Source: Deltaproteobacteria bacterium (GTDB lineage Bacteria > Myxococcota_A > JAADFL01). Taken from it: a DNA stretch of 14,670 nucleotides. Positions 3,681 to 14,670 of this stretch are shown here, piece by piece. The stretch is taken from contig JAADFL010000177.1 of NCBI GenBank assembly GCA_013152945.1, forward strand, positions 1 to 14,670, written 5' to 3'. Position numbers and translations under genes: made by a program. The number at the start of each line of letters is the position of its first letter. Position 1 is the stretch's first letter. The notes beneath the pieces were generated by a model, which saw only the letters and a list, made by a program, of their open reading frames with translations, did not search any database and was not told the origin of the DNA.

Positions 3681-5627
3681 TCACCTCACAACGAACCAGT
3701 AATCGCTTCCATGGACGAGTTGTTTCGAATCCTCGCTCTTTGCACAGGCACGAAGAACGAACCAGCCCCTTGAGCCGACATTGAACTTGACATGGTGAGA
3801 TGTACCTGCCTGCTCTGAAATCTGTATGTCATTCCCATAAGTGGGAACCTTTTTCCCCCATTCGATCCATGTCATTGCCGGCGAATCAGTTTCAAAGTCG
3901 ACTACGACCTGATTGCCCGTGACCTGTATTGTTGGAGGCGATATGAACAATTGCTTCCTCTTCGACCGTGGAGGCAATTCGCCAAGGGCATCCCTTAATT
4001 CAGAGGCAAGAGATCTTATTTTTTCAGGTTCACAAGGCCACCCGAAACCGGCGGACTCTATCTGGCCGGCTATGGATTCGAAAGAAGAAAGTGAGTCTGA
4101 AAGCCATCCAAGAGCAGCCTGGTCTTTACTCTTTTGCCAATATGAATAACCCCAGACCAGTTCACCAACCTCTGTCCAGGCTTTAAGGCAAAGGTTCTGA
4201 TGTTCAAGCCTGTATTCCAGGTCCTTGCAATCCTCTGGGCGCAACTTGGGACAGGCTTGTTCAACATCCTTGACAGAGAAGTCTGACAGTTCCAGGGCCT
4301 CGGCTTTTTCCTGCCTCAAGTCTATCAAGGTTTGGACATCAGGATTTTTCATTTCCTCGTACCAATCCTGGTAGTCCGGATCCCACTTGGCCAGCGAGCG
4401 CTCATCAAGAAGTTTGGCTTTAAGCAGGGTGTCAGGCAGACCGCTTCCTTTTTCAAGTGCCCAAAATCCTTTGAAGTAGTACATCTTTCTTCCAATATCG
4501 AAAGTTCTTTCAAGCGCCTGTTTCAGGGCAATCCCTGCGTTGGATTCAGGATCCAAGCCGTATCTCGAAGAGATGAAATTCGCCCACACCTGTTCTGAAG
4601 TCACCTGAAAATTCTTGGAAAACATGGAAGCTGCCAATAAGTTTACCTCGTTGGGATTGCCAAAGACAGTCTTGTCTCCTCTGGATATCCGGGCCGCATA
4701 GCCCGCGATACCCTTGCTTGCACCGTAGATGAATCTTCGCTCAAAGTATTGCACAGCGCAAAAAGGAAGTATGGTTTGTCCACAGTACTCGCCCGCACCA
4801 TCCAATTCCATCAAGTGCTTTCTGTCTGAATAGACCCCGAACAACGGGTGTGGTGGATAGTATGGCTCCCAGTCTTGCGGGACATCCTTGCTCATAACAG
4901 CAAAATCGATGTTATTCGCTGCAAGAAGGCCGTCTTTGACCCATTCATTTTCCTGGGGCTGATGGATGAAGGTACGAACAATGAGTTTCAATCCCAATTC
5001 GCCTACTACTACGGAATGCACGACCCTTGTTATCAATTCCACTCTTTCGTCTGCGGGCGGAACTTGGAACATCCACAGGCTCTGGTCGTCCGCCTCGTTT
5101 TTCCTGGCCTCACAATAATCGCAAGTACAAGGCGCATACCAGGGATCCGGCTTGGAGGAACCGAACATGAGCACCACCCCATCCACGTCCGGTAATTCAC
5201 CGAGGGCCGTCCGATAAGCCGAAGCTCTCTTTTCCCAAACAGGATCCTTTGGATTGAAACAGACCGAAAGCCCTGCATTGTTTAGTTCATGTGCCCAGAT
5301 ATAAACATCAAGCCCTGCCTCGTGAGCCAGCTCTGCATAATTTTCTACCATGTCCATCTTTTTAGGATCCTGGTTGATTTCATCCACGTTCATGACAATG
5401 GAATGTGAAAGCTGTAATTCATTTACACCGAGTTCATGTGCTTTTTCGAGGGTGGTTTCGAATTGATCCGGGTCATCGGACAATACGACGAATGCCTGAA
5501 CAGCAAGGGGATAATCAGAATTTACATGTCCGGATGATTGTCCGTTGTTCTTCATGCAACTCGTGAAAGACAGGGCAGGCAAAATTGAAAGAAAAAACGC
5601 TGCTACTATTTTCTTACACAGTTGCAT
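3681..5627 (-). CDS. Lipoprotein with probable glycosidase-like TIM barrel and C-terminal beta-sandwich
   Basis: The start chosen is the ATG at 5625-5627, because it gives a clean lipoprotein signal peptide (MQLCKKIVAAFFLSILPALS, then FTSC with Cys24). No Shine-Dalgarno is visible. The frame stays open to 5774, but that extension would put the signal peptide 50 residues inside. Of 648 residues, about 38-320 resemble a TIM-barrel carbohydrate-active enzyme: alternating strands such as LDVYIWAHEL and VDGVVLMFGSS, a CTCDYC cluster (Cys167, 169, 172), VMSKDVPQDWEPYYPP and a Glu/Asp-rich MELDGAGEYCG. The layout recalls alpha-glucuronidase (GH67) or GH20-type enzymes, but I cannot assign a family. 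About 380-550 is helical. The last 85 residues look like a fibronectin-III-like domain (VVVDFETDSPAMTWIEWG). Outer-membrane anchoring is inferred. Confidence 0.75.
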   Translation of the reverse strand: MQLCKKIVAAFFLSILPALSFTSCMKNNGQSSGHVNSDYPLAVQAFVVLSDDPDQFETTLEKAHELGVNELQLSHSIVMNVDEINQDPKKMDMVENYAELAHEAGLDVYIWAHELNNAGLSVCFNPKDPVWEKRASAYRTALGELPDVDGVVLMFGSSKPDPWYAPCTCDYCEARKNEADDQSLWMFQVPPADERVELITRVVHSVVVGELGLKLIVRTFIHQPQENEWVKDGLLAANNIDFAVMSKDVPQDWEPYYPPHPLFGVYSDRKHLMELDGAGEYCGQTILPFCAVQYFERRFIYGASKGIAGYAARISRGDKTVFGNPNEVNLLAASMFSKNFQVTSEQVWANFISSRYGLDPESNAGIALKQALERTFDIGRKMYYFKGFWALEKGSGLPDTLLKAKLLDERSLAKWDPDYQDWYEEMKNPDVQTLIDLRQEKAEALELSDFSVKDVEQACPKLRPEDCKDLEYRLEHQNLCLKAWTEVGELVWGYSYWQKSKDQAALGWLSDSLSSFESIAGQIESAGFGWPCEPEKIRSLASELRDALGELPPRSKRKQLFISPPTIQVTGNQVVVDFETDSPAMTWIEWGKKVPTYGNDIQISEQAGTSHHVKFNVGSRGWFVLRACAKSEDSKQLVHGSDYWFVVR

Positions 5628-5650
5628 TTGTGATTGATTATCATGTATTG

Positions 5651-5670
5651 CAGGATTGAAATCAACCCTG
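5651..5670. promoter_or_regulatory. Candidate palindromic operator between divergent lipoprotein genes
   Basis: CAGGATTGAAATCAACCCTG is a 20-bp imperfect palindrome with arms CAGG-n-TTGA and TCAA-n-CCTG and one mismatched pair per half. It lies in the 110-bp region between the divergent starts at 5627 (minus) and 5738 (plus), where a shared regulator could act. No convincing -35/-10 pair was found there, so this rests on symmetry and position only. Confidence 0.35.
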
Positions 5671-5737
5671 CCTATTGGCTTGGTATACAGTTTTGGTGTA
5701 TCTTGGATATTGGCCGAACAAAAGCAGGAGGTGCGCC

Positions 5738-7936
5738 ATGTCCAGGGATGTCTTTGACTTTTTTCTTTCTTCATGGCGGGTTCTTGCCTATTCCATTTTA
5801 GTCACAATAACATTGCAGACAAGTGTTTCCTGTTCAAAGGGAACCGTGGAGACCGGCAAGGAACAGGAAGCTTCAGACCAAGAGAATAAATTTGAGAAAG
5901 AAACGGATCCGCATTCTGACGCTGATCTTGGGCAAGGATGTTTGGAGGGCATGCAGATTTGCCTTGATGGAGTGGCCCGGTTATGCAGGTCTTCTGTATG
6001 GCTTGTCCTGGAGAACTGCAAGGTAAAAGGGCAAATCTGCGCCATGATCCATGGAGAGGCACGATGCTTGTCTTCCGGAGATGCGGACACGGATACTGAC
6101 ACGGATACTGACACGGATACTGACACGGATACAGATACGGAGACAGGCACTGACACAAGCGGTTGCACGGAGAACATGACGAAATGCACGGACGGCGCAG
6201 TACAGAAATGCGTGTCCGGCAAGTGGATAGTGTGGGATGAATGCGATAAGCAGGGAAAGAAGTGTATAGTTAGCAATGGACAGGCTGTATGCGTGGAGCA
6301 AGGCGACTCGGATGCGGACACGGATACTGATACGGATACAGATACGGAGACAGGCACTGACACAAGCGGTTGCACGGAGAACATGACGAAATGCATGAAT
6401 GGCGCGGTGCAGAAATGCATGTCCGGCAAGTGGATAGTGTGGGACGAATGCGATAAGCAGGGAAAGAAGTGTATAGTTAGCAATGGACAGGCAGTATGCA
6501 TGGAGCAAGGCGACTCGGATACTGATACCGACACTGATACTGATACTGACACTGATACAGGCACGGATACCGGAGGGTGCACGGAAGGTTCAACCGTTTG
6601 CGTGGACGATATGGTAAAGAAATGCGTCTCGGGGAAATGGATTGATTGGGATGATTGCCTCAAGCAAGGCAAGAGTTGTGTCTTTGTTCAAGGAAAAGCC
6701 GAATGTTATTCACAAGGTGATGCTGATACAGATACAGATACTGACACGGGCACAGATACGGGAACATGCTCCAAAGGAGATACGAGATGCGACAGGGACA
6801 ACCTCCAGGCATGCATTTCCGGCAAGTTCGTGACCATTGTTTCATGTCCGGCACAGGGAAAAGCGTGCAGACAAGGAATCAACGGGGCCGAGTGTTACTA
6901 TCCGCCTGATGCCGAACCCGAGCCGGAGGCAGAACCCGAACCCGAGCCTCCTGCAGAGTGTTCTCCCGGGCAGGAGCAGTGTTCCGACCAGGGGTACGAG
7001 CAGCACTGTATTCTGGGAAGGTGGTCCAACTGGGATGACTGCATCGGCAAGGGAAAGATCTGCATACTGGTTCAGGGCGATGCAAAGTGTGTGTACGAGC
7101 CTGATGCAGAAGCCGATGCGGACGAGAAGCCGGAGATCACCTACTCATGTAATCTAAATTCTCATGGATACCAAGAATGTACAAGGGATGACGGCATTGG
7201 AGGGCCTTTCATCGTGATTCCGCAAGGCACCTTTTGGATGGGGTGCAACTATGACCAGAACGGCGGCTTGTTATATTGCGACACTGATGAATTCCCCCAA
7301 CATCAGGTGAATTTATCCATGTTCGCAATTGATAAGCACGAGGTTACCCAGGCTCAGTACAAGTCATTTATGGACATCACAGGGCATGCAGGTCCAGACC
7401 CGACCTGTTACAGTGCCGCCCCGGTTGATTGGGACCCTGTCACCAATGCCTCGTTGCCCGTGATGTGCGTAACCTGGAACGATGCGGCTGAATATTGCCA
7501 GTGGCTGGGAGGCGACCTGCCCACAGAGGCGCAGTGGGAGATGTCGTGTCGCGGGACAATGAAGGACAAAGATGATTACAAGGCGTTTCCATGGGGAACA
7601 AACAAGTATGATTGTTCGCTCGCAAATTATTACCAGTGCGAGGGCAAACCCCTATCCGTGGGTGCCAAGGACAGCGGAGCCTCTCCATATGGAATAACCG
7701 AACTGGCAGGCAATGTTGCCGAGTGGTGCCTGGATTGGCATGGCTTGAAATATTACGATGTATCACCTTTGCAGGATCCTACGGGCCCTGACACGGGATT
7801 TGTCAAGGTATTTAGGGGTGCAGGCTGGAATAGCGAGGTAAAGGATTACGGAAGGTGTGCAGGCAGGCAGTTGGAGAATCCCAACAAGAGTCAGGCCAAC
7901 ATGGGTTTTCGATGCCGAAGACCCCTGCCGTTCTAG
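5738..7936 (+). CDS. Lipoprotein with six 6-Cys modules, Asp-Thr linkers and SUMF1/FGE-like domain
   Basis: The start is the ATG at 5738, preceded by AGGAGG (5726-5731); an upstream in-frame ATG at 5675 has no ribosome site. The N-terminus is a signal peptide ending in the lipobox SVSC (Cys32). Six modules of 43-44 residues follow, each spaced C-x6-C-x7-C-x10-C-x6-C-x8-C (x8 in place of x7 in the last). They lie at 5939-6067, 6164-6292, 6371-6499, 6578-6706, 6767-6895 and 6959-7090. Linkers of alternating Asp-Thr, then Glu-Pro, separate them. From about residue 488 there is a formylglycine-generating-enzyme/SUMF1 fold: IPQGTFWMGC, DKHEVTQAQY, LPTEAQWEMSCRGT, ELAGNVAEWCLDW, FRGAGW, MGFRCRR. 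The usual catalytic Cys pair of FGE is not evident, so a binding or structural role is more likely than sulfatase activation. Function unknown. Confidence 0.9.
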   Translation: MSRDVFDFFLSSWRVLAYSILVTITLQTSVSCSKGTVETGKEQEASDQENKFEKETDPHSDADLGQGCLEGMQICLDGVARLCRSSVWLVLENCKVKGQICAMIHGEARCLSSGDADTDTDTDTDTDTDTDTDTETGTDTSGCTENMTKCTDGAVQKCVSGKWIVWDECDKQGKKCIVSNGQAVCVEQGDSDADTDTDTDTDTETGTDTSGCTENMTKCMNGAVQKCMSGKWIVWDECDKQGKKCIVSNGQAVCMEQGDSDTDTDTDTDTDTDTGTDTGGCTEGSTVCVDDMVKKCVSGKWIDWDDCLKQGKSCVFVQGKAECYSQGDADTDTDTDTGTDTGTCSKGDTRCDRDNLQACISGKFVTIVSCPAQGKACRQGINGAECYYPPDAEPEPEAEPEPEPPAECSPGQEQCSDQGYEQHCILGRWSNWDDCIGKGKICILVQGDAKCVYEPDAEADADEKPEITYSCNLNSHGYQECTRDDGIGGPFIVIPQGTFWMGCNYDQNGGLLYCDTDEFPQHQVNLSMFAIDKHEVTQAQYKSFMDITGHAGPDPTCYSAAPVDWDPVTNASLPVMCVTWNDAAEYCQWLGGDLPTEAQWEMSCRGTMKDKDDYKAFPWGTNKYDCSLANYYQCEGKPLSVGAKDSGASPYGITELAGNVAEWCLDWHGLKYYDVSPLQDPTGPDTGFVKVFRGAGWNSEVKDYGRCAGRQLENPNKSQANMGFRCRRPLPF
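6086..6133 (+). repeat. Tandem 12-bp repeat encoding Asp-Thr linker
   Basis: GACACGGATACT occurs three times in a row (6086-6097, 6098-6109, 6110-6121), followed by a fourth copy with one mismatch (6122-6133). Each unit encodes DTDT. Similar, less regular Asp-Thr codon runs form the linkers at about 6304-6365, 6512-6570 and 6718-6760. Such tracts can change length by slippage without breaking frame. Confidence 0.9.
6134..6520 (+). repeat. 207-bp tandem duplication of one cysteine module plus linker
   Basis: The segment beginning GATACGGAGACAGGCACTGA at 6134 recurs at 6341, an offset of 207 bp (69 codons). The similarity runs through the whole second and third cysteine modules to GGCGACTCGGAT, ending near 6313 and 6520. 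Only scattered substitutions separate the copies, several of them changing Thr or Val to Met, so the duplication looks recent compared with the other modules, which differ much more. Confidence 0.9.
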
Positions 7937-9188: not shown

Positions 9189-9303
9189 CAAGAACCGGTG
9201 TTTCATGTTGTACGGCTCTTTTGGAAAACTATGTTGACATTACTCCTGGAATGGTTTTCAAAGAGATACTATTATGGAAAGTTGACCTGTGGGGGATAAT
9301 GTC

Positions 9304-10389
9304 ATGAAAAAAAACGAAGAGGTCCGCGTGTTGCTCGTGGACGACGACAGGGATTTTCTGGAGATATGCCGGGAAAACCTGTCCAGGGAAGAATCCGGGA
9401 TTCAGGTGGAGACAGCCAAGTCAGGAGAAGAATGCCTGTCAAGACTGAAAGACCAGCATTTTGATGTGGTCCTGGCGGATTACTGGATGGAACCGGGTAT
9501 GACAGGCCTGCAGCTTCTTTCACTCTTGAGGAAAGAGGGCTATGCAGTGCCTTTTATTTTCCTCACGGCACGGGGAAACGAAGGAGTTGCGGCCGAGGCT
9601 TTGCGCCTGGGTGCAGATGATTATCTTGTCAAGGGCGTGACTCGCAGCGGGTACAAAAAGCTTGCAAGGGCTGTAATGGAAGCTGCCGAAAGGGTTGGAG
9701 GTTCTCCCGGGTTGGAGCCGGGTTCCGGCATTGTTGCAAGGACTCCCATATCGGTAACCAAGAAATTCGAACTTCTTCAAGCAATAGTGGAAGAAGTCCC
9801 GACAGGCATACTGGTCCTTGGTCCGGACGGCGGTGTTCTCTCCGCCAACTCCAAGCTGCGTATGATGTTAGGCCTTGACAAGGAAGCTTACAAGTCCTGG
9901 CTGCAGAACCTCCTTGATTCAGCAAAAGAAAAGCTGGGTGATGCAGGAACCGTTATTTACCGTATGATCGAGGATGGTGCCCCGATCGAGCACTTGGAAT
10001 TCGAACTCGACTCGGCGGACTTACGAAAATTACGTGTAAGGGCCCGGGGCCGTGAGATAGTCACTCATTTGAATGAGAGAGCCGGCTTTGTCCTGGCCAT
10101 GGAAGATATCTCGAATGAAAGCGAAAACCAAGCCACTCAAAAAAGCACGATTTCGGAGTTGAGACGGAGACTGGATGGAAGAACACAATTACTGGAAAAT
10201 GTAATGAAACGCCTCTCGCACGACCTGAAGGGGCCTTTGGTTTCCATATCTGGTTATGCAGAATTGCTCCTGGACAAGAAAAAGAAATTTTCAAAGGAAG
10301 AAATTGACAGGCAACTTCAGAGTATCAGGAGAAATGCTCTGAAGTTGAACAAGATGATGGATGAACTCGTGTCTATGAGGAAATCGTGA
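9304..10389 (+). CDS. REC-PAS-DHp response regulator without a kinase ATPase domain
   Basis: The start chosen is the ATG at 9304, with GGGGG eight bases upstream. An in-frame GTG at 9289 lies within that ribosome-site region. Of 361 residues, 1-125 form a receiver domain with the acidic pocket Asp13-15, phosphoacceptor Asp59 (VLADYW), Thr88 (FLTA) and Lys110 (YLVKG). About 155-270 look like a PAS sensor domain (ILVLGPDGGVLSANSKLRMM, then FVLAMEDIS). About 275-361 form a coiled coil and a histidine-kinase dimerisation domain with the H-box RLSHDLKGPLVSISGYAELL (His306). The protein stops 55 residues after the histidine, with no HATPase_c domain, and the following DNA encodes none. It may therefore accept or relay phosphate, or dimerise with another kinase, rather than autophosphorylate. 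An evolved orphan and a truncated hybrid kinase are both possible. Confidence 0.88.
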   Translation: MKKNEEVRVLLVDDDRDFLEICRENLSREESGIQVETAKSGEECLSRLKDQHFDVVLADYWMEPGMTGLQLLSLLRKEGYAVPFIFLTARGNEGVAAEALRLGADDYLVKGVTRSGYKKLARAVMEAAERVGGSPGLEPGSGIVARTPISVTKKFELLQAIVEEVPTGILVLGPDGGVLSANSKLRMMLGLDKEAYKSWLQNLLDSAKEKLGDAGTVIYRMIEDGAPIEHLEFELDSADLRKLRVRARGREIVTHLNERAGFVLAMEDISNESENQATQKSTISELRRRLDGRTQLLENVMKRLSHDLKGPLVSISGYAELLLDKKKKFSKEEIDRQLQSIRRNALKLNKMMDELVSMRKS

Positions 10390-11052: not shown

Positions 11053-12522
11053 TTATTTTGTAACGGCGATCAATTCTTTTTCCACGTCCCTGATTCGACG
11101 ACGCAATAATAGGCTGTACATGTCCAGTATCTCTTGATCGGTCATGTGCAGGCCCTGTATTTCCATGGCCTGCTCAAGCCGGGGCCTTGATAAAAATATT
11201 TCTTTCAGAAACCTGAAATAGAGTTCCCGTATTTCTCCGGCAGGCAGTGTCGGGGTGCCGAAATGTCCGATATCATGGTAAGGCGCATCGAAAGCGGAAT
11301 CGTCTTTTGGTAAATTCAGGCCATGTTCCAAGCCGATGCGAAATATATCGGTGTTTGGATAATACTTGACCGTAAAAAACATCGGCAAGACAAGTCCCTG
11401 AATTGCCTTTACAAAACGCAAGGTGGACAGGGCCTCCTCCTTGGTTTCGGATGGAAGGCCGATCATGAAACACAGGTTGACCATGACTCCCTTGCTTATG
11501 GTGTACTCGGTTACAAGCTTGAGCTTTTCCAAGTTCAGGTTTTTTCTTATCAGCCTTTGCAGCCTGTTGGATGCGGTTTCCAGGGCATAGGTCACCCATA
11601 CCATTCCGGCTTCCACCAGCATGTCCACCAATTTCGTATCAAGCAGGTCTGCTCTCAAGCCGTTGGCAAAATACAGGTTGAATTGTTCATCCTGTTTGGA
11701 CAGCAGGCTGCAAAATCGTTCCACCCTTGTCCTATCCAGGTTGAACCCGTCATCTATGAAGTAGAAATCTTTGATACCCCTTTCAAGATTAAGCAATTTC
11801 ATCTCAGCGACGACCGAATCGGCACTCCTCGGCCTGAACCTGGAACCGAACAGGTTGTGGCAATATGCGCATCTGTAAGGGCAGCCTCTTGACGAAAGAA
11901 TGACTCCTTGACGCCTTCTATTGTAGCCGTACGTCAAATACCTTTCATAACGGCCCAGGTCCAGGCAGTCATAGTCTGGAAATGGAAGCGCATTCATGTC
12001 CTGGAGGAATCGTCTCCCGGGATTTATCACCACGCCATGCCCTGGGTGCGTGTAACCGATTCCGGGAAGGTCACGAAAATCCTTTCCATCATTCAGGCGT
12101 TGCACCAAGGACGGAAGAACCATGTCTCCCTCTCCGATGACTACTGCATCCACTCCTGTTTGCAGTGCCTGGCGCGGTGATATGGTGGGAAAAGGACCGC
12201 CCGCAAGCAGAAGGGTTTTCTTACCCCTGCTTTTTATTAAGGATGCGAGTTCCTTGAACCTCTTTCGATATACATGCAAGCCACGAATGCCGACCACGTC
12301 CGGATCGAATCGGTCCAATTCCGCCGCAAGCTCTTGATCCGAGTTATAGTCTCCAAAGGAATGCCTTACTGCCACTTGGACCTTGTCACCCAAGTGTTCT
12401 TTGAGGTCGGCAGACAACTGCATCAAGCCATGCGGCAGCACTATCTGCTCCAGGTCTTTCATGTCCGGCCTTGAAGCCAGCCACGGACCGGCCGCTTCCA
12501 ACAGCATTACTTTGATCGGCAT
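11053..12522 (-). CDS. Cobalamin-binding-domain radical SAM enzyme
   Basis: This 489-residue enzyme belongs to the B12-binding radical SAM group, whose members carry out methylations and rearrangements on unactivated carbons. Residues of about 1-155 form the Rossmann-like cobalamin-binding domain (FDPDVVGIRGLHV, LLLAGGPFPTISP, VDAVVIGEGDMVLPSL); it has no DxHxxG histidine, as is usual in this class. The radical SAM core follows, with the [4Fe-4S] motif SSRGCPYRCAYCHN (Cys214, Cys218, Cys221), then DFYFIDDGF, GMVWVTYALETAS and VNLCFMIGLPSET. A helical C-terminal domain runs from about 400. The ATG lies four bases after the carrier-protein stop with little ribosome site, so it is probably translationally coupled. 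The preceding adenylation and carrier genes suggest a carrier-bound amino acid as substrate. Methyl transfer versus another reaction cannot be read. Confidence 0.9.
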   Translation of the reverse strand: MPIKVMLLEAAGPWLASRPDMKDLEQIVLPHGLMQLSADLKEHLGDKVQVAVRHSFGDYNSDQELAAELDRFDPDVVGIRGLHVYRKRFKELASLIKSRGKKTLLLAGGPFPTISPRQALQTGVDAVVIGEGDMVLPSLVQRLNDGKDFRDLPGIGYTHPGHGVVINPGRRFLQDMNALPFPDYDCLDLGRYERYLTYGYNRRRQGVILSSRGCPYRCAYCHNLFGSRFRPRSADSVVAEMKLLNLERGIKDFYFIDDGFNLDRTRVERFCSLLSKQDEQFNLYFANGLRADLLDTKLVDMLVEAGMVWVTYALETASNRLQRLIRKNLNLEKLKLVTEYTISKGVMVNLCFMIGLPSETKEEALSTLRFVKAIQGLVLPMFFTVKYYPNTDIFRIGLEHGLNLPKDDSAFDAPYHDIGHFGTPTLPAGEIRELYFRFLKEIFLSRPRLEQAMEIQGLHMTDQEILDMYSLLLRRRIRDVEKELIAVTK

Positions 12523-12526
12523 ATTT

Positions 12527-12805
12527 TCAACTCACATGTTGATTGAGTTTTTCGTTAACAAAGGAAACTATCGAAGAAAGAGTATCCAATTCGGCTGATG
12601 CGAGTTCTTCGACCGAAAAATTAATGTCGAATTTTTTTTCGAGTAATGAAAGCAACAACACGAGGCCGGCCGAATCTATCAGGCCCGTGCTGACCAACGG
12701 AGAATCAGCTTTCAAATCGAAGTTCCCTTGTCCATCCATGAGGCCGCGCTTAATGAATTTTTCCACGATTGCTTCGACTTCCATCTTTTTCAGCTCACGG
12801 CTCAT
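12527..12805 (-). CDS. Discrete peptidyl/acyl carrier protein
   Basis: This 92-residue stand-alone carrier protein has the phosphopantetheine attachment motif TGLIDSAGLVLLL, with Ser45 as the expected modified residue. It is followed by the usual helix (LEKKFDINFSVEEL) and a last helix (TLSSIVSFVNEKL). The ATG at 12805 follows AGGAGG by about ten bases and overlaps the end of the adenylation gene; a TTG at 12811 is an alternative start. Its place between an adenylation enzyme and a radical SAM enzyme, with only four bases to the latter, marks it as the carrier on which the activated amino acid is held. A 4'-phosphopantetheinyl transferase must be supplied from elsewhere. Confidence 0.92.
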   Translation of the reverse strand: MSRELKKMEVEAIVEKFIKRGLMDGQGNFDLKADSPLVSTGLIDSAGLVLLLSLLEKKFDINFSVEELASAELDTLSSIVSFVNEKLNQHVS

Positions 12806-14396
12806 TTTCAAGCTTCCTCCTGTTCAGCTTTCCGGTCGAAGTCCTGGGCATTTCCTTGATCCATCTTAACTTGTCAGGCAGCATATACCTTGGCAACCTC
12901 TCTGACAAAAAGCTCATCATGTCAAGATAGTCCACATGATTTTGGGACATGGGCGTAACGAACAGGTCGATGGATCCGGATTCGTTTCCCTGTGAAAATA
13001 ATGCAGCCGCTTCCTGGACAGCCGGGTGAGCGGCAGCCACTCTTTCAATCTCGCCCAGCTCGATACGAACGCCCCTGCGTTTTACCATGCGATCCTTCCT
13101 GCCCAGGAGTATGATATTTCCGTTTTCGTCCTGTTTTGCCAGGTCCCCGGTTCTGTATGCCTTTGAAGGTTGTTTATCCGGGTTGATTTCCACCAGGGCG
13201 GTCTCAATGCCGGCACCATCCGTGAAATATCCGGACATGAGAGTTGGTCCACTGACCACGATTTCTCCTTGCTCCCCTGGCAAGACAGGATTCAACTCCG
13301 TGTCCATGATCCATACCGTGTCTCCACAGCAGGCGGTGCCTATGGTGATATCGCCTCCTGCCGGGTCGGGAGGGGCCGGCAGACGGTGGAAGGTGCAGAC
13401 GTTGGTCTCTGTAGGCCCATAGAGATTATAGAAAACCGGGCCTTTGAGCACATCCATAACAGCCTTCAGCAAGGCGGGCCGAAACACCTCGCCCGCGAAC
13501 AGGCACAGTCTCAAGCTCCCGAGTTTCCTTGTCTTTATCGATCCATGTTTGAGGAGTTGTATATAGGTCCATGGAACCGTATAGAGCACACTTGCCCCGA
13601 CCTGTTCCAGCCAGGCGCCGGCGACCCTGGGCCAGGTCACAACTTCCCTCGGAGCAGGCAGGAGTGTAGCGCCGGCCATGGCGGTTCCAAAAACATCAAG
13701 CACCGATAAATCGAATGCAAGTGAGGCATGGTTTACGATCTTGTCTTCAGGGGAAAAATCAAACTCTCTTACAGCCCACTCCAGAAATGCCAAAGCTGCA
13801 CGATGGGACAGCACGACTCCTTTGGGTTTGCCTGTGGAGCCTGATGTGTACAATATGTAAGCTGGTTCTTCTCCGCGGCCGGGCTTGGGCTTGAAGGATG
13901 ATGTAGCGCCGATCTCTTCCACCACACCGAGGCACCTTTTTGAACAAGATGGTTTCCTGTGCAGACACAATGAAGGAGCCGGGATGTCGTCGAGGTTAAT
14001 GCCGATTCTGTCCAAGACATGCCCGTCACTCAAAAGCAACACAGGTTTTACATCTTCCAGGAAGGACATTATTCTCCTGGCAGGCCACCCGGTATCCAAT
14101 GGAACATAGGCGGCTCCCGTACATATTACCCCGTACAATCCGGAGATGGCATCTATAGACTTGTCCAGCAACAAGGCGACCCTTTCACCGGAACCCGCGC
14201 CATTTTCTGCGAGAGCCTGGCCGATTTCAAGGGCATTTCGCGCAAGATGTTCGTACGACAAGCTTGCATCCCCGAATTGCACAGCCGTCCTGTTGGAAAA
14301 CCTCTGTGCACTGTCCATCAACAGGTCGAATAATCCTTTTCCCAAAAAATTCCCCTGCCCGGCCGATGTTGAGCGCGGCCTTCTCTGTTTATCCAT
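12795..14396 (-). CDS. Stand-alone amino-acid adenylation enzyme, PltF-like (L-proline suggested)
   Basis: This 533-residue ANL-superfamily ligase activates an amino acid with ATP and loads it on a carrier protein. All core motifs are present: A3 YTSGSTGKPKG (183-193), A4 with Asp229 in FDLSV, A5 LYGPTET (325-331), A7 YRTGDL (414-419), A8 GRKDRMVKRRGVRIELGEIE (432-451) and the A10 lysine Lys523 in RTSTGKLNRRKL. Asp229 aligns with GrsA Asp235, which binds the amino group, so the substrate is an amino acid rather than a fatty or aryl acid. By-eye alignment gives the code D-L-L-(T/Y)-L-A-L-V-C-K, very close to the L-proline code I recall for PltF. The start is ATG 14396 with AGGG upstream; TTG 14420 extends the frame but lacks a ribosome site. 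No condensation or thioesterase domain is fused. It overlaps the carrier gene. Confidence 0.9.
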   Translation of the reverse strand: MDKQRRPRSTSAGQGNFLGKGLFDLLMDSAQRFSNRTAVQFGDASLSYEHLARNALEIGQALAENGAGSGERVALLLDKSIDAISGLYGVICTGAAYVPLDTGWPARRIMSFLEDVKPVLLLSDGHVLDRIGINLDDIPAPSLCLHRKPSCSKRCLGVVEEIGATSSFKPKPGRGEEPAYILYTSGSTGKPKGVVLSHRAALAFLEWAVREFDFSPEDKIVNHASLAFDLSVLDVFGTAMAGATLLPAPREVVTWPRVAGAWLEQVGASVLYTVPWTYIQLLKHGSIKTRKLGSLRLCLFAGEVFRPALLKAVMDVLKGPVFYNLYGPTETNVCTFHRLPAPPDPAGGDITIGTACCGDTVWIMDTELNPVLPGEQGEIVVSGPTLMSGYFTDGAGIETALVEINPDKQPSKAYRTGDLAKQDENGNIILLGRKDRMVKRRGVRIELGEIERVAAAHPAVQEAAALFSQGNESGSIDLFVTPMSQNHVDYLDMMSFLSERLPRYMLPDKLRWIKEMPRTSTGKLNRRKLENEP

Positions 14397-14561
14397 ACGT
14401 TTACCCTGGTACCAATCCAAGATGCAAGCAGGGTTGATTCGTTGTAGTTAGCGCCAGGCAGCTTTGCACCTGCAGGCCCTTGAATTAGCGTCCCCGTACG
14501 TGAGGCGGGCGGCAAAACAAAGTTGGCGTATTGGAGCGATTTATCCTTGGTATCCCGCTCT

Positions 14562-14594
14562 GGCTCTCCCCACCCTGGGCTCTCCCCACCCAGG
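14562..14594. repeat. Short direct repeat and hairpin in the right-edge spacer
   Basis: GGCTCTCCCCACCC occurs at 14562-14575 and 14578-14591. Overlapping it, CCTGGG (14574-14579) can pair with CCCAGG (14589-14594) around a 9-nt loop. The whole 14397-14670 stretch upstream of the adenylation gene shows no supported gene and no clear promoter on the minus strand. The repeat's role is unknown; it may lie in the leader of the biosynthetic operon. Confidence 0.5.
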
Positions 14595-14670
14595 TTGATT
14601 TTGAGGGCATCAAAAACGTGCTGTCATTTCAGGAAGTTTCGCATCAGTAAAAATCCATTGACGCGCAAAT

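Follow-up and report, generated by a model that had tools for sequence, protein, structure and literature searches.

Within a 14,670-nt stretch of DNA from a Deltaproteobacteria bacterium of the lineage Myxococcota_A (assembly GCA_013152945.1), referred to here as the window, three minus-strand open reading frames (ORFs) form a tight operon encoding a stand-alone adenylation (A) enzyme, a stand-alone peptidyl carrier protein (PCP) and a radical S-adenosylmethionine (SAM) enzyme with a cobalamin (B12)-binding domain, as confirmed from the sequence read and the ORF list. The window is the complete contig JAADFL010000177.1 (C177) of a 4.84-Mb assembly in 218 contigs with a completeness of 94.3%. 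The A gene (12795..14396, minus strand) runs from an ATG at 14396 to a stop at 12795-12797, and its 3' end is overlapped by 11 nt by the carrier gene (12527..12805, minus strand), whose ORF would span 12527-12811 if read from a TTG, with the ATG at 12805-12803 and an AGGAGG in front of it as the likelier start. The radical SAM gene (11053..12522, minus strand) begins with an ATG at 12522, separated by 4 nt from the carrier stop; this spacing and the A/carrier overlap imply co-translation. A first-pass annotation had described three minus-strand genes joined by overlap or a 4-bp gap, as the ORFs and starts confirm, and its statement that no other gene shares their direction is true of the neighborhood: the next minus-strand gene on the contig lies at 3681-5774, with none between it and the operon, and the 274 bp between A and the contig end are a noncoding stretch (14397..14670, minus strand) with stops in all three minus-strand frames. 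This stretch may hold a leader or promoter. Scans for promoters and terminators found no convincing signal for the operon, and the sole promoter-like match upstream of A (14627-14598, 9 of 12 consensus positions) is by itself no evidence. An Rfam scan returned no match, and thus no known cobalamin riboswitch.

The A protein exceeded the curated Pfam cutoffs for PF00501 (259.5 bits) and PF13193 (33.4 bits), and the NCBIfam cutoff for TIGR01733 (AA-adenyl-dom, 333 bits). Alignment to A-domain motifs gave a specificity pocket of ten residues, DLLYLALVCK, in a GrsA numbering that assumes the standard GrsA motifs; the comparison with PltF is independent of that numbering. In alignment with PltF (PDB 6O6E) the two pockets are equal at 10 of 10 positions, in agreement with the multiple alignment. 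A review describes 6O6E as an L-Pro enzyme whose structure was solved with Pro-AVS and the carrier PltL. A tree of 65 rows placed the window enzyme within a clade of stand-alone prolyl ligases (58 rows; support 98/96) that lies apart from most other adenylation domains; its branch is long, and no member of the clade shares more than 40% identity with it. The PltF-identical pocket and this placement strongly support L-proline, or a ring analogue close to it, as the predicted substrate of what would be a stand-alone L-prolyl-[carrier protein] ligase of the PltF/PigI/CloN4 type, its activity likewise being a prediction. A D-alanyl (DltA-like) specificity was ruled out by pocket and tree, on which the label "amino acid unknown" was dropped as well. 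No other amino-acid-type adenylation enzyme was found in the genome, where the next matches reach 23-30% identity. The first-pass annotation had spoken of a cassette of unknown product; the amino acid predicted to be loaded can now be named from the pocket, narrowing the substrate question to one candidate, L-proline.

The carrier matched PF00550 at 25.6 bits, over the cutoff, with the attachment motif GLIDSAG and its serine in GLIDS. The third protein matched the B12-binding domain PF02310 (56.6 bits) and the radical SAM domain PF04055 (70.2 bits), both over cutoffs, and its CxxxCxxC cluster motif reads RGCPYRCAYC; a B12-binding Rossmann domain together with this core places it among the cobalamin-dependent radical SAM enzymes. 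The three families named in the first pass are thereby supported by Pfam and NCBIfam. No characterized equivalog was found in NCBIfam, the best model being NF050148 at 130 bits against a cutoff of 750. An AlphaFold model (mean pLDDT 71.6) gave Foldseek matches, in order of E-value, to AprD4, TsrM, MgmA, OxsB, TokK, and CysS. The genome holds 30 B12 radical SAM matches.

The trio itself has a precedent in clorobiocin, contrary to the first-pass view that the set matched no described pathway. There, CloN4 loads proline on CloN5 and CloN3 oxidizes it; methylation of the pyrrole-2-carboxyl group falls to CloN6, for which a radical SAM nature has been proposed on the basis of its cysteine motif (PMC11218499, PMC10849742). 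CloN4/CloN5/CloN6, and the CouN equivalents of coumermycin A1, have the same trio of functions as is predicted for the window genes, the likeness being one of function. In contrast to clorobiocin, a CloN3-type dehydrogenase was not found in the window or in its genome, within the bounds of 94.3% completeness and a contig edge, so we do not assign the window system to the methylpyrrole pathway; nor does the window hold the transfer genes CloN1/CloN2/CloN7, for which the rest of the genome was not searched. The unusual part of the system is this absent prolyl dehydrogenase. The A/PCP arrangement is also that of PltF/PltL/PltE (pyoluteorin), PigI/PigG/PigA (prodigiosin), and AnaC/AnaD/AnaB (anatoxin), whereas the window has a B12 radical SAM enzyme in place of the flavin dehydrogenase of those sets. 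CysS of cystobactamid biosynthesis, which has been solved with a pantetheinylated substrate (9n1b), shows that a B12 radical SAM enzyme can methylate a group held on a peptidyl carrier. Its sequence match to the window enzyme is weak (E 2.1e-6), and unlike the window system its substrate is an aromatic methoxy group on a peptidyl carrier of a nonribosomal peptide synthetase pathway.

How exceptional the missing dehydrogenase is can be judged from 56 prolyl-ligase loci among the matches listed, drawn from plasmids, from genomes of GTDB and of the window's own phylum, and from a sample of Streptomyces. A prolyl-acyl carrier protein (ACP) dehydrogenase-like gene stands in the cluster in 51 of them, at most 183 bp from A in 48 of those 51, and the best PDB match of one such dehydrogenase, checked for type, was the prolyl-ACP dehydrogenase 4IRN. 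Every other locus among the matches listed with the exact DLLYLALVCK pocket (25/25) has an adjacent prolyl-ACP dehydrogenase, and the five dehydrogenase-free loci (L048, L049, L223, L224, and L226) all have altered pockets. The window contains no prolyl-ACP dehydrogenase of the PltE/AnaB/CloN3 type; none of the 11 acyl-CoA dehydrogenase matches in the genome falls inside the prolyl-dehydrogenase clade (support 99/97), and the closest of them matches generic acyl-CoA dehydrogenases better than prolyl ones. The window is the exception among the listed loci with this pocket, no prolyl dehydrogenase having been found in its 94.3%-complete genome.

Some of the sampled loci have features of their own. 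In the Streptomyces loci L223, L224, and L226, prolyl-ligase family members with pockets such as DLNYLALISK and DMIYLALVCK have no dehydrogenase nearby, and their substrate may differ from proline. In an Acidobacteria locus (L049, 1-6837), a carrier and a prolyl-type ligase (DLLYFALVCK) adjoin a glycosyltransferase-like gene on a 6.8-kb contig without a dehydrogenase. A Desulfobulbaceae locus (L056, 4300-19183) sets a prolyl ligase, carrier, prolyl dehydrogenase, and electron transfer flavoprotein within a polysaccharide locus (GNAT, deacetylase, PIG-L, glycosyltransferase, sulfotransferase, and flippase genes), possibly for a pyrrole-acylated glycan. In a locus from the window's own phylum (L051, 5427-21578), a prolyl ligase split between two frames is accompanied by an acyl-CoA dehydrogenase, an epimerase, a DegT aminotransferase, and a distantly related B12 radical SAM enzyme; the locus was rejected as a second case of the window arrangement, its radical SAM enzyme being 23% identical and 9 kb away in a cluster with a dehydrogenase.

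Evidence on what the radical SAM enzyme acts upon comes mainly from its relatives. Across two phyla, sets of 95, 345, and 328 genomes (those of 95 and 328 being from the window's own phylum) yielded no homolog above 38% identity, and a viral scan gave no matches. The closest relative found, at 36-38% identity, lies in a Desulfobacterota genome (G1022, locus L242), in an uncharacterized operon that reads carrier, FkbH, radical SAM, SAM-methyltransferase, carbamoyltransferase, and epimerase. As in the window, this radical SAM gene accompanies a stand-alone carrier; unlike in the window, the loader is an FkbH-domain protein (TIGR01686, 263 bits, over the cutoff) and not an adenylation enzyme, with the carbamoyltransferase and SAM-methyltransferase downstream. 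In a 40-row tree the two radical SAM enzymes are sisters (99/98), paired in all bootstrap trees, and a constraint keeping the window enzyme apart from the L242 group was rejected (p-AU 0.019). They are also the only enzymes in that tree found beside a carrier: no carrier was detected near 38 other relatives, with a carrier hidden Markov model giving no match in the fetched flanks of those from Desulfobacterota, Acidobacteriota, and the window's own phylum, and a homology search found none near the Roseibium enzyme. Two carrier-linked members with different loaders argue for recognition of a carrier-bound thioester. Action of the radical SAM enzyme on a carrier-bound acyl group, as the first pass had inferred, is thus the most likely reading and is moderately supported, the best evidence being that the closest relative is also carrier-linked. 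Among other relatives, two Desulfobacterota loci (L243 and L244) carry arrays of approximately six clustered B12 radical SAM paralogues.

With the usual prolyl dehydrogenase absent, no pyrrole stage is evident, and we favor B12 radical modification of saturated prolyl-S-PCP. We give an even chance to the full proposal that the three-gene operon makes a modified proline on its carrier, the radical SAM enzyme acting on the saturated prolyl-S-PCP, likely by C-methylation and with no pyrrole stage. The A enzyme would form prolyl-AMP from L-proline and load the dedicated PCP to yield prolyl-S-PCP; a 5'-deoxyadenosyl radical would then take a hydrogen atom from an unactivated ring carbon, to which the methyl group of methylcobalamin would pass, as the superfamily and CloN6 suggest; and an unlinked transferase or thioesterase may release or transfer the product. 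More tentatively, and with somewhat less than even confidence, we suggest that the window and L242 enzymes represent a small carrier-dedicated B12 radical SAM subfamily that would act on saturated acyl groups on stand-alone carriers whatever the loader, with L-prolyl-S-PCP as the substrate here, probably D-glyceryl-S-ACP in L242, and never a pyrrole.

Several findings weigh against these proposals. The window radical SAM enzyme is a long branch, and its pairing with the Roseibium enzyme stays unrejected (p-AU 0.11), so the sister relation to L242 is good but short of certain; private shared residues number 16 for window/L242 against 18 for window/Roseibium, and the tree gains nothing from them. 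No ortholog of the whole A/carrier/radical SAM trio was found in the genomes searched, and the linkage is therefore conserved in part only. The first pass had counted occurrence of the radical SAM gene without the A/PCP pair against its own inference, and half of this is what we see: distant homologs occur without the pair, and the trio has no ortholog among those genomes. All prolyl ligases found in 377 own-phylum genomes have a dehydrogenase and no radical SAM gene, and none of 31 Streptomyces prolyl loci has a radical SAM gene. Because the closest match among solved folds, AprD4, is a diol dehydratase, methylation cannot be taken for granted. Finally, a dehydrogenase may have been missed, either in the approximately 6% of the genome that is absent or past the contig end, which lies 274 bp upstream of A.

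This last point underlies the rival that survives best, though we consider it unlikely: a CloN4/5/6-like 5-methylpyrrole route, in which a dehydrogenase encoded elsewhere or past the contig end makes pyrrole-2-carboxyl-S-PCP before the radical SAM enzyme methylates it. The same three functions do occur together in clorobiocin biosynthesis, and the frequency of dehydrogenases in related loci (51/56, and 25/25 adjacent with the exact pocket, among the loci listed) favors such a route, as do the incompleteness of the genome and the proximity of the contig end; against it, adjacent dehydrogenases usually lie within 183 bp of A, and no acyl-CoA dehydrogenase of this genome joins the prolyl clade, the best one being closer to generic enzymes than to prolyl ones. 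We regard it as rather improbable that the enzyme alters the carrier-bound prolyl group by something other than methylation, such as C-alpha epimerization, hydroxylation, dehydrogenation, or rearrangement. The lack of an NCBIfam equivalog over cutoff, a dehydratase as best fold match and the presence of the nonmethylating OxsB among the matches would all fit, and, speculatively, chemistry near C-alpha is possible since the alpha-hetero-substituted acyl carbon is all that glyceryl (the FkbH partner) and prolyl thioesters share; nonetheless, according to PMC11659888 and PMC13142503, characterized B12 radical SAM enzymes are mostly methylases. About equally improbable is that the A/PCP pair prolylates some acceptor while the radical SAM gene is a mere neighbor with another target, which would suit the abundance of B12 radical SAM matches in the genome, the distance of most relatives from carriers and the A/PCP pairs of this family in glycan loci without a radical SAM gene (L049 and L056), but is opposed by the 4-nt gap between the carrier and radical SAM genes and by the fact that the sister enzyme is independently linked to a carrier.

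In the loci examined, carrier-tethered proline is nearly always paired with a pyrrole-forming enzyme. If the modification of saturated prolyl-S-PCP that we favor is true, a compact set of three genes would apply B12 radical chemistry to the saturated ring and yield modified prolines, which are prized as building blocks for peptides. The cofactors of CloN6 and its role as a cobalamin radical enzyme are without biochemical confirmation (PMC8992657), making a small trio outside Streptomyces a practical test case.

Elsewhere in the window, the minus-strand gene at 3681-5774 encodes a predicted secreted protein of 697 residues with no Pfam or NCBIfam match. On the plus strand, 5675-7936 encodes a probable lipoprotein with long Asp-Thr repeats (2.4 tandem copies of an imperfect 207-bp unit) and a domain of the FGE-sulfatase type at its C terminus, and 9289-10389 encodes a response regulator-PAS-HisKA protein that ends straight after the HisKA dimerization helix, without an ATPase domain. 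At the contig start (2-553, plus strand), a C terminus suggests a Myxococcota-like host, as its Cys/Gly-rich segment, hydrophobic stretch, and RRRK resemble a MYXO-CTERM sorting tail.

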